Shown here piece after piece: positions 16,653 through 18,526 of a stretch of DNA of 64,000 nt (within the stretch, counting starts at the first letter, position 1; each line of letters starts with the position of its first letter). Below the pieces are notes generated by a model that was not told the origin of the DNA, searched no databases, and saw nothing but the letters and a program-made list of their open reading frames with translations. This DNA comes from Clostridiales bacterium (GTDB lineage Bacteria > Bacillota > Clostridia > Christensenellales > Aristaeellaceae): contig JAILIE010000065.1 in NCBI GenBank assembly GCA_024695415.1, positions 62,001 through 126,000 on the forward strand. The letters are read 5' to 3'. The position numbers and the translations under genes are program-made.

Positions 16653-16682
16653 ATATTACCTTTTTTTGCCTTGTTTCGTCAA
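16653..16682 (-). promoter_or_regulatory. Promoter of glgC-glgD-glgA
   Basis: Minus strand TTGACG, an 18-base A-rich spacer and TAATAT, about 80 bases before the glgC start. The rest of the 16573-16842 gap holds this promoter, the facing ECF promoter and AT-rich sequence only. Confidence 0.7.
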
Positions 16683-16728
16683 GAGCAAAAAAGCGGAGGG
16701 AAAGCCGCCGCCGTTTAAGGGGAATGGT

Positions 16729-16758
16729 ATTTCCGCGCGGCGCAGGTTATGGTATAAT
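16729..16758 (+). promoter_or_regulatory. Extended -10 promoter before the ECF sigma gene
   Basis: TGGTATAAT at 16750-16758 is an extended -10 element; the -35 (TTTCCG region) is poor. It looks sigma-A-dependent rather than autoregulated by the ECF factor. Confidence 0.6.
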
Positions 16759-16842
16759 GGTCCGCGGGCCGGCGTCCGCCGGGCGGGCGGAACGTTCCGG
16801 AACTTTTTTCATGATTTTTGACTGTACGGGGGAAGAAGAACC

Positions 16843-17397
16843 TTGCTGTTTTCGTTGAATACTGTGGAAGGCGGGATTCGGGAGGACTCCGCCTCCTCCG
16901 CCGCGGAAGAACCGCTTTCGTTTGACCGGCTGTATGAGCTTTACGCGACGGACGTGCTCCGTGTCGCGTATTACTATCTCGGCGACCGGCAGCGGGCGGA
17001 GGACGTGACGCAGGACGTATTCGTCAAGCTGATCGTGACGAAGCCCGCGCTGGTTCCCGGGAAGGAAAAGGCCTGGCTTCTGAAGGTGGCGCTGAACCGC
17101 TGCCGGGACCTCTGGCGCGGCGCGTGGTTCCGGAAGGTGGTCCTGGGCCATCCCGCCTTCGAGCTGTTTCCCGCCGAGGACGAGGTCGGCCGGATAGCCG
17201 ACAGCGCGGCCCTCGCCGAAGCGGTGAACCAGCTGCCGCAGGAGTTCAAGGAAGTGGTCCTGCTGCATTATTACCAGGGCTACGGCGTGACCGAGATCGC
17301 GGAGATGCTGGAGATTGCCGAGGGTACGGTTTCATCCAGGCTGAGCCGCGCGAGGAGCCGGCTGCAGAAAACAATGAAAGGAGACAATCCGGAATGA
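16843..17397 (+). CDS. ECF-type RNA polymerase sigma factor
   Basis: About 184 residues. Region 2 is LYELYATDVLRVAYYYLGDRQRAEDVTQDVFVKLI, and region 4 is LPQEFKEVVLLHYYQGYGVTEIAEMLEIAEGTVSSRLSRARSRLQK, the standard sigma-70 ECF layout without region 3. TTG at 16843 is used as start, preceded by a purine-rich GGGGGAAGAAGAA stretch; the first about 25 residues precede the sigma domain. The stop overlaps the next start by four bases, coupling it to a small membrane protein that is probably its regulator. Target promoters are unknown. Confidence 0.9.
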   Translation: MLFSLNTVEGGIREDSASSAAEEPLSFDRLYELYATDVLRVAYYYLGDRQRAEDVTQDVFVKLIVTKPALVPGKEKAWLLKVALNRCRDLWRGAWFRKVVLGHPAFELFPAEDEVGRIADSAALAEAVNQLPQEFKEVVLLHYYQGYGVTEIAEMLEIAEGTVSSRLSRARSRLQKTMKGDNPE

Positions 17398-17813
17398 AAA
17401 AGATCGAACAGCTTCCCGAAGCGACCGAGCAGGCGCTTTTCAGCCTTCGGGCGGATGACGCGCTGAAGCACCGGATTTTTGAGCAGGCCGCCGCCTCCGG
17501 CACCACCGGCAGGAAAAGCGGGTTTTTCCGTCCCGCGGTATGCCTCAGTCTCCTTTCCGCGGCAATGATCGCCGTGTTCGTCCTCCTCTCCGGCCTGGGC
17601 GGCACCGGCACGACGGTGGACAACGATATCCATACGATCTCCGCCGGTTCCTACCGCAGCGTTTCCCCCGTTCACCTGGGGGACCTGGTGGACGGCGCGG
17701 AAGAGGCAGCTGTGGAAGAAACTGCCGAAGAGGCGGAAGAAGACGAAAATGAAACCGCCGGCCCTGAAGAGGAACCAGCGGAAGAGGAAGCGGAGGGCGA
17801 AAACGCGGATTAA
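17394..17813 (+). CDS. Small single-pass membrane protein, putative anti-sigma factor with acidic tail
   Basis: A 139-residue protein beginning at ATG 17394, inside the sigma stop. A cytoplasmic N-terminal part (about 1-40) contains LRADDALKHRIFEQA. One transmembrane helix (AVCLSLLSAAMIAVFVLLSGL, about 45-65) follows, then an exported part that ends in about 35 residues of almost only Glu, Ala, Pro, Asp. The position and topology match an anti-sigma factor, and LxxDDxLKxRI resembles the short N-terminal helices seen in some Clostridia anti-sigma factors. No zinc-binding anti-sigma motif is visible. Function is inferred from context. It overlaps convergent sigH by four bases. Confidence 0.6.
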   Translation: MKKIEQLPEATEQALFSLRADDALKHRIFEQAAASGTTGRKSGFFRPAVCLSLLSAAMIAVFVLLSGLGGTGTTVDNDIHTISAGSYRSVSPVHLGDLVDGAEEAAVEETAEEAEEDENETAGPEEEPAEEEAEGENAD

Positions 17814-18526
17814 TCCCGGACGTTGGTTTCCTCCAGGTATTTTTCCAGCTTTCTTTTCACCCGCTGCAGCGCGTTGTCAATGGATTTTACATGCCGGCCG
17901 AGGGATTCGGCGATTTCCTGGTAGCTCTTTCCATCCAGATAGGCATTCAGCACGTCCTGTTCGAGTCCGGACAGGACTTCGTTGATTTTGCTGTGAATGC
18001 TGCCCAGGTTTTCCCGGTGGATAATCATCTCCTCCGGGTCGGAGGCCCGGCCCTCGATGATCACGTCCAGCAGCGTCCGGTCGCTCTCCTCGTCATAGAG
18101 CGGCTTGTTCAGGGAAACATAGCTGTTCAGGGGAATATGCTTCTGGCGGGTGGCGGTTTTGATGGCGGTGATGATCTGGCGCGTGATGCACAGCTCGGCA
18201 AAAGCCCGGAAAGAGCTGAGCTTTTCCGGCCTGAAATCACGGATCGCCTTATACAGGCCGATCATTCCCTCCTGAACGATATCCTCGTGGTCCGCGCCGA
18301 TCAGGAAATAGCTCCTGGCCTTGGAGCGGACAAAATTCTTGTATTTGTTCAGGAGGTATTCCTCGGCTTCCTGGTCGCCCTGGTGACACAGTTCCACGAT
18401 TTCCTCGTCCGGCATGTCCGCGAAACGCAGCCGGAGGGACTGCATCATTTTGTCCTCATGCTCCGCCTCCGGCGGCATGGAGGGCTGATTCTCCACGGGG
18501 ATGGGCTGATCTTCCTGTCTCTTCAT
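17810..18526 (-). CDS. sigH: RNA polymerase sigma factor SigH (sporulation/stationary phase)
   Basis: A 238-residue sigma-70 family protein with SigH features: MPDEEIVELCHQGDQEAEEYLLNKYKNFVRSKARSYFLIGADHEDIVQEGMIGLYKAIRDF in region 2 and YQEIAESLGRHVKSIDNALQRVKRKLEKYL in region 4. SigH directs transition-state and early sporulation genes in Bacillus and Clostridia. It is last in mrnC-thyX-rlmB-sigH, the conserved Bacillota neighbourhood. The N-terminal 25-residue Pro/Glu-rich extension is outside the fold. Presence of sigH alone does not prove sporulation. Confidence 0.93.
   Translation of the reverse strand: MKRQEDQPIPVENQPSMPPEAEHEDKMMQSLRLRFADMPDEEIVELCHQGDQEAEEYLLNKYKNFVRSKARSYFLIGADHEDIVQEGMIGLYKAIRDFRPEKLSSFRAFAELCITRQIITAIKTATRQKHIPLNSYVSLNKPLYDEESDRTLLDVIIEGRASDPEEMIIHRENLGSIHSKINEVLSGLEQDVLNAYLDGKSYQEIAESLGRHVKSIDNALQRVKRKLEKYLEETNVRD

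Follow-up and report, generated by a model that had tools for sequence, protein, structure and literature searches.

Does a single-pass membrane protein that lacks a zinc motif and ends in a strongly acidic tail control the ECF sigma factor encoded directly upstream of it, and if so, by which of its parts? This question is raised by a gene pair within the window, as we call the whole stretch of 64,000 nucleotides that was analyzed. We consider it quite likely that the pair forms a two-gene ECF sigma/anti-sigma operon of ordinary logic, which would serve an envelope (peptidoglycan) stress regulon and whose sensor domain has been eroded. The two genes are:

16843..17397, plus strand: ECF sigma factor gene, 184 codons with the TTG start at 16843 as found (Sigma70_r2 and Sigma70_r4_2 domains; PDB relatives SigL, SigE and SigW)
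17394..17813, plus strand: gene of the partner, a putative anti-sigma factor of the short form with 139 amino acids (open reading frame, family alignment and profile match to forms of about 300 amino acids)

The gene pair and its surroundings

Both open reading frames overlap by 4 nt (ATGA), and one flank of the pair is occupied by glycogen synthesis genes on the minus strand. A sigma-based scan of genome contigs yielded 80 loci, to which genome searches added more; the sigma/partner alignment employed (A3) was checked row by row. In essentially all of the about 85 distinct relatives, the gene directly 3' of the sigma gene encodes a membrane protein whose N-terminus is homologous. Since the two-gene order is repeated that often, the pairing is not a matter of chance. 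Thus the search for homologues, which had been proposed in a first-pass annotation of this DNA, together with the open reading frames and the Pfam matches, confirmed its description of an ECF sigma gene coupled to a single-pass membrane protein.

Two further elements are found nearby. A second gene of the sigma-70 family (17810-18526, minus strand; 238 amino acids, regions 2 and 4) is convergent with the partner gene and looks SigH-like. The glgC promoter on the minus strand (16655-16695) is of the housekeeping type, TTGACG-N18-TAATAT-like, and reads on the plus strand as TTCGTCAAGAGCAAA; the element is also located 5' of the sigma gene in most loci of the genus.

Sigma factor, start codon and promoters

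In the sigma factor, both Pfam domains, Sigma70_r2 (E=1e-13) and Sigma70_r4_2 (E=7.5e-16), match above the cut-off, and with regions 2 and 4 only and a length of 184 amino acids it belongs to the ECF sigma factors (sigma-70 group 4), which comprise about 160-190 amino acids. Its relatives of solved structure are likewise ECF sigma factors, and the same holds for the Foldseek matches of one relative's pair, modeled with AF2 as a read-through product. At E≤1e-30 the sigma factor is missing from about half of the genomes of the genus (3/13 among the high-quality ones) and is thus dispensable. Two promoter elements precede the gene:

16750..16758, plus strand: extended -10 element TGGTATAAT, probable housekeeping promoter of the operon (judged from its sequence; a TGN-TATAAT-like element is present in about half of the genus loci)
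16831..16856, plus strand: ECF-type autoregulatory promoter GGAA-N18-CGTT (exact N18 spacing in the window and 18 other genus loci, of 22)

With a GGAAY-like -35 box and a CGT -10 box, the latter element has the makeup of an autoregulatory ECF-type promoter. GGAA-N18-CGTT precedes the sigma gene in 19/22 genus loci, compared to a mean of 0.92 loci in shuffled sequences, where any spacing from 14 to 20 was allowed. Among loci encoding the long form of the partner (see below), 16/64 carry the GGAA/CGTT motif, 14 of them at N18, with 2.67 expected. The TTG codon at 16843 falls between the two promoter boxes, and the -35 box could at the same time serve as ribosome-binding site. Because this codon lies inside the conserved promoter, the true start may be the GTG at 16864, 7 nt 3' of CGTT, and the same spacing is found for an ATG in two relatives (L112, L113). 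Translation from this alternative sigma start could be leaderless, while the extended -10 element at 16750-16758 could supply a longer transcript.

Anatomy of the partner protein

Four segments can be distinguished in the partner:

17394..17525, plus strand: putative anti-sigma segment (ASD), residues 1-44 (LPE..E..L..L.AD..LK.RI..A), then a basic linker (conservation; AF2 helix 7-36)
17526..17597, plus strand: single membrane helix, residues 45-68 (AF2; hydropathy in 84 relatives)
17625..17696, plus strand: conserved juxtamembrane segment, residues 78-101, DIHTISAGSYRSVSPVHLGDLVDG (39.2% identity in short forms; position of AG in 80/84 relatives)
17697..17810, plus strand: acidic disordered tail, residues 102-139 (18/38 Glu; pLDDT about 50; unconserved)

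The AF2 prediction, run with 13 relatives and of modest confidence (mean pLDDT 65.8), comprises a helix at residues 7-36, the membrane helix at 45-68, a weak helix at 95-110 and a tail without structure. About 45 residues lie in the cytosol (median 47 in 84 relatives), and A20, L24 and I28 of the anti-sigma segment are invariant in 24 members. Within 15 residues of the membrane helix, the 84 relatives carry on average 4.2 Lys/Arg inside and 1.2 outside. This excess on the inner side fits an N-in/C-out orientation, and the anti-sigma topology assigned in the first-pass annotation thus holds. The absence of a zinc motif was also described correctly: the only His and Cys residues are H26, C50, H80 and H94, no HxxxCxxC occurs, and membership in the zinc-binding class I (ZAS) is thereby ruled out.

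Pfam contains no family that matches the partner at E≤1, and NCBIfam gave sub-threshold matches only. Profile searches of solved structures, for which the long form and the anti-sigma segment served as queries, delivered nothing significant, and no solved anti-sigma factor was matched. Compared with other Firmicutes ECF partners, the N-terminus of the partner reached an hhalign probability of 88.8%. The earlier idea of a different type of anti-sigma factor is therefore only partly valid: the family is indeed absent from Pfam and NCBIfam, but a zinc-less segment of about 45 amino acids is common to other Firmicutes ECF partners, and given this relationship at profile level the anti-sigma segment is not of a new kind. 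Taken together, the conserved pairing, the conserved N-terminal segment, the topology and the autoregulatory-type promoter support a zinc-less anti-sigma role for the partner. A second ECF family of the genus (L130-L134) has membrane partners of 235-329 residues, which also start with a short zinc-less segment.

The mean pairwise identity among the short forms differs between the parts of the partner. Residues 5-36 reach 49.5%, the membrane helix 35.2% and residues 78-101 39.2%, whereas the linkers have 10.7-13.9% and the tail has 11.7%, which makes it the least conserved region apart from the short linkers. This pattern speaks against a partner that has degenerated into a non-functional anti-sigma factor and has left the sigma factor to transcriptional control only. 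Such decay would be consistent with the repeated loss of parts of the outer domain (see below) and with the housekeeping-type extended -10 element upstream. However, all short-form relatives have preserved the open frame, the start/stop overlap is retained, and the ASD and the juxtamembrane segment are conserved whereas linker and tail are not, so that we regard this explanation as improbable.

The tail itself had been described as about 35 residues of Glu, Ala and Pro outside the cell and was considered as a possible charge sensor. Glu and Ala do prevail (18 and 9 of the 38 residues), but Pro was overstated, since residues 102-139 contain only two. As a sensor, the tail would bind cationic antimicrobial peptides or metal ions by its charge and would so control the sigma factor. 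Its predicted location outside the membrane would allow for this, and with a net charge of -21 past the AG motif it is very acidic in the window protein, as it also is in four relatives (L003, L032, L036, L117). However, values between -21 and about 0 were obtained for this charge among the relatives, in the closely related L028, L029, L034 and L115 the tail is almost uncharged or almost missing, and outside the genus a folded domain takes the place of the acidic tail. Since a tail of about 12% identity and such variable charge is not conserved, in contrast to residues 5-36, a charge sensor is very unlikely. We consider the acidic tail to be only a leftover, a variable end that serves as dispensable remnant or spacer and is of little importance itself.

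The juxtamembrane segment differs from the tail in conservation. The motif 'IxxIxAG' is common to short and long forms, and an AG dipeptide within 60 residues past the membrane helix is present in 80/84 relatives, mostly 13-21 residues away; in the long form it resides within a disordered linker. We infer that a segment for cleavage or switching would look like this, with a short conserved motif inside a disordered stretch next to the membrane. A precedent is given by RsiV, of which residues 1-86 suffice for a switch based on protease protection (PMC6066255).

If the partner were a co-activator or an unrelated membrane protein that is merely co-transcribed, this would explain why no recognized anti-sigma domain is found above any cut-off. 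The anti-sigma topology, the permanent pairing with the sigma factor and the mentioned resemblance of its N-terminus to other ECF partners argue against such a role. The same applies to the NCBIfam model NF052375 ('anti-sigma factor'), which weakly matches 4/19 long forms (best E=8e-4). With this match far below the curated cut-off, and with only a few members weakly matched by the CU044_5270 family NF038083 (19 bits vs. a cut-off of 100), membership in either family is not given. All in all, a co-activator or unrelated protein has very little probability, and the partner is best taken as a putative anti-sigma factor.

The long form and the loss of its outer domain

Outside the genus, the partner comprises about 300 amino acids and has a confidently predicted ectodomain. 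This outer domain (L039-L083, L305-L309) spans about 190 residues in two alpha/beta halves with a conserved CGTWxC, and it is conserved as NFPLIxVxGRYYRLL...ACGTWACPEFF. It belongs to no Pfam family and has no solved relative by sequence; in Foldseek only a weak match to the C-terminal domain of NisI was obtained (E=0.16). In a model of the L069 pair (pTM 0.43), in which the stop codon was read as Gly purely as a modeling device, the outer domain follows a disordered linker of 60 residues and has a pLDDT of mostly about 90. In samples spanning the order and the class, the long form turned up only in the window's own taxonomic family (14/297 and 1/391 genomes, respectively). Our literature search, mostly outside subscription journals, revealed no report on these partners. 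The partners of about 300 amino acids represent a so far unnamed and undescribed anti-sigma family, whose outer domain is likewise undescribed.

The window protein shares the homologous ASD, membrane helix and AG motif with this family, while the C-terminal outer domain with ACGTWxCPEFF is absent from it. Accordingly, short and long forms align over residues 1-86 (hhalign E=1.7e-18), that is, over the ASD, the membrane helix and AG, and the homology ends there. In a maximum-likelihood tree of 85 sigma factors plus outgroups, all full-length partners fall outside the genus clade (support 100/97), and the entry L070 ('short270') outside this clade is a truncation at a contig end. Inside the genus clade, only reduced partners are found, which are of three kinds. 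Those with the C-terminal half (179-187 residues; clade support 100/91) match the profile to the end of the domain (E=1.4e-22), those with the N-terminal half (158-170 residues; 100/98) match it to the start of the domain (E=2.7e-16), and the remaining ones, among them the window protein, have no outer domain (103-147 residues). Given the tree position of the full-length partners and the profile matches of each reduced group, domain loss is the simplest history, and sequence comparison shows that the outer sensor domain is gone from the window's lineage, in which everything up to the AG motif is kept. By the same evidence, the ancestral partner comprised a cytosolic helix segment of about 45 residues, one membrane helix, a disordered linker with the conserved AG and an outer domain of about 190 residues. 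That the short form is ancestral and the domain was gained later can be dismissed as the least probable explanation: the short form is simpler and two of the three genus branches have partial domains, but short and half forms are nested inside the long forms on the sigma tree with its outgroups, and the two kinds of half domain show homology to opposite halves of the long one, as fits loss.

Proposed mechanism

How might such a reduced partner work? The cytosolic segment (residues 1-44) would bind the sigma factor and hold it off RNA polymerase at the membrane. A first cut on the outer side, within or close to the conserved juxtamembrane segment, would be followed by cleavage through an M50 site-2 protease, which would free the sigma factor, and the latter would then transcribe its own operon and cell-wall genes. 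An M50 site-2 protease (PF02163) is encoded in 5/5 genomes examined, as required for release by regulated intramembrane proteolysis. Among candidates for the first cut, a PrsW-type protease is present in the genome of the window (G000:C92:25-471, L310). However, none was found in four near-complete genomes of the genus, and PrsW was thus rejected as general site-1 protease. Signal peptidase, the site-1 protease in the case of RsiV, is not supported either, since the conserved motif mostly lies 13-21 residues past the membrane helix, which in our judgement is not a typical signal peptidase position.

As the domain is lost in the window lineage, the signal would have to take another route to the juxtamembrane segment or the site-1 protease there, for instance via a further envelope protein. 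Across the series from full domain through either half to no outer domain, the sigma factor, the promoter and, for at least one target, the regulon seem to be kept. One may speculate, with less than even probability, that the membrane helix and the 24-residue juxtamembrane segment read the signal on their own, the outer domain having been only an accessory or having been replaced by another protein. For most membrane anti-sigma factors, sensing is ascribed to the outer domain. Since full, half and domain-less versions occur within one clade, next to orthologous sigma factors that have one promoter motif in common, the need for an outer sensor becomes testable by swapping these forms.

Relation to known anti-sigma factors

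The system would work in the manner of membrane anti-sigma factors such as RsiV, RsiP or RsiW, but it belongs neither to the zinc nor to the class I or DUF4179 families. RsiV/sigma-V and RsiP/sigma-P of Bacillus (DUF4179-type, zinc-less; PMC6066255, PMC8844934) are also Firmicutes ECF partners with a short zinc-less cytosolic segment and one membrane helix. They share the conserved juxtamembrane segment and also an envelope regulon and a site-2 protease step, both of which are assumed for the window system. In contrast, neither the window protein nor 19 long forms match DUF4179 at E≤1, and as this domain across membrane helix and juxtamembrane region is lacking, membership among the DUF4179/RsiV (ECF30) partners was rejected. 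Furthermore, the outer domain of the long forms is unrelated to that of RsiV and RsiP, and the window form has none at all.

As in class I (RseA, RskA, RsiW, ChrR), a membrane-anchored inhibitor would be encoded beside its own ECF sigma factor. Class I anti-sigma domains have four helices and an average of 101 residues, and about 44% of them also lack Hx3Cx2C (PMC7406223). The partner differs from this fold, as its cytosolic part of about 45 residues has one helix (7-36) and no Hx3Cx2C. With class II (CnrY) it has in common a putative inhibitory segment of <50 residues, followed by one membrane helix. Class II is defined by two helices that wrap sigma regions 2 and 4, and the L069 read-through model, at its pTM of 0.43, shows short helices ahead of the membrane helix. 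CnrY itself is a protein of proteobacteria with a role in metal sensing. Profile searches detected no sequence similarity between CnrY-like class II proteins and the partner.

Candidate regulon

If the sigma factor recognizes its own promoter, other genes preceded by the motif are candidate targets. In six genomes of the genus, the extended promoter motif occurs at 99 sites compared to 27 for the reversed pattern. Many single sites inside long open frames are presumably due to chance. Genes beside such sites recur between genomes and are secreted or wall-related: Big_2 (Ig-like), transglycosylase PF00912 (class A PBP-type), PG_binding_1, YkuD and SH3. Upstream of the Big_2 gene, the N18 motif is found in 16/20 genomes with the sigma factor and 2/10 without it (Fisher p=0.004, uncorrected for relatedness; shuffled mean 0.2), and upstream of the transglycosylase gene in 12/19 and 4/11, respectively (p=0.26; shuffled mean 0.47). 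Both tests are only indicative, given the relatedness of the genomes and the tendency of sigma-less ones towards lower completeness. The other ECF sigma factors of the genus (L130-L134) could share the GGAA-N18-CGTT motif. A peptidoglycan-related regulon is predicted for uncultured or little-studied Clostridia of ruminants; the window stems from a rumen-type bacterium. Several promoter-like sites (G000, G091, G112, G132, G154, G155) contain an internal TTCC before CGTT, which forms an inverted repeat with the GGAA box.
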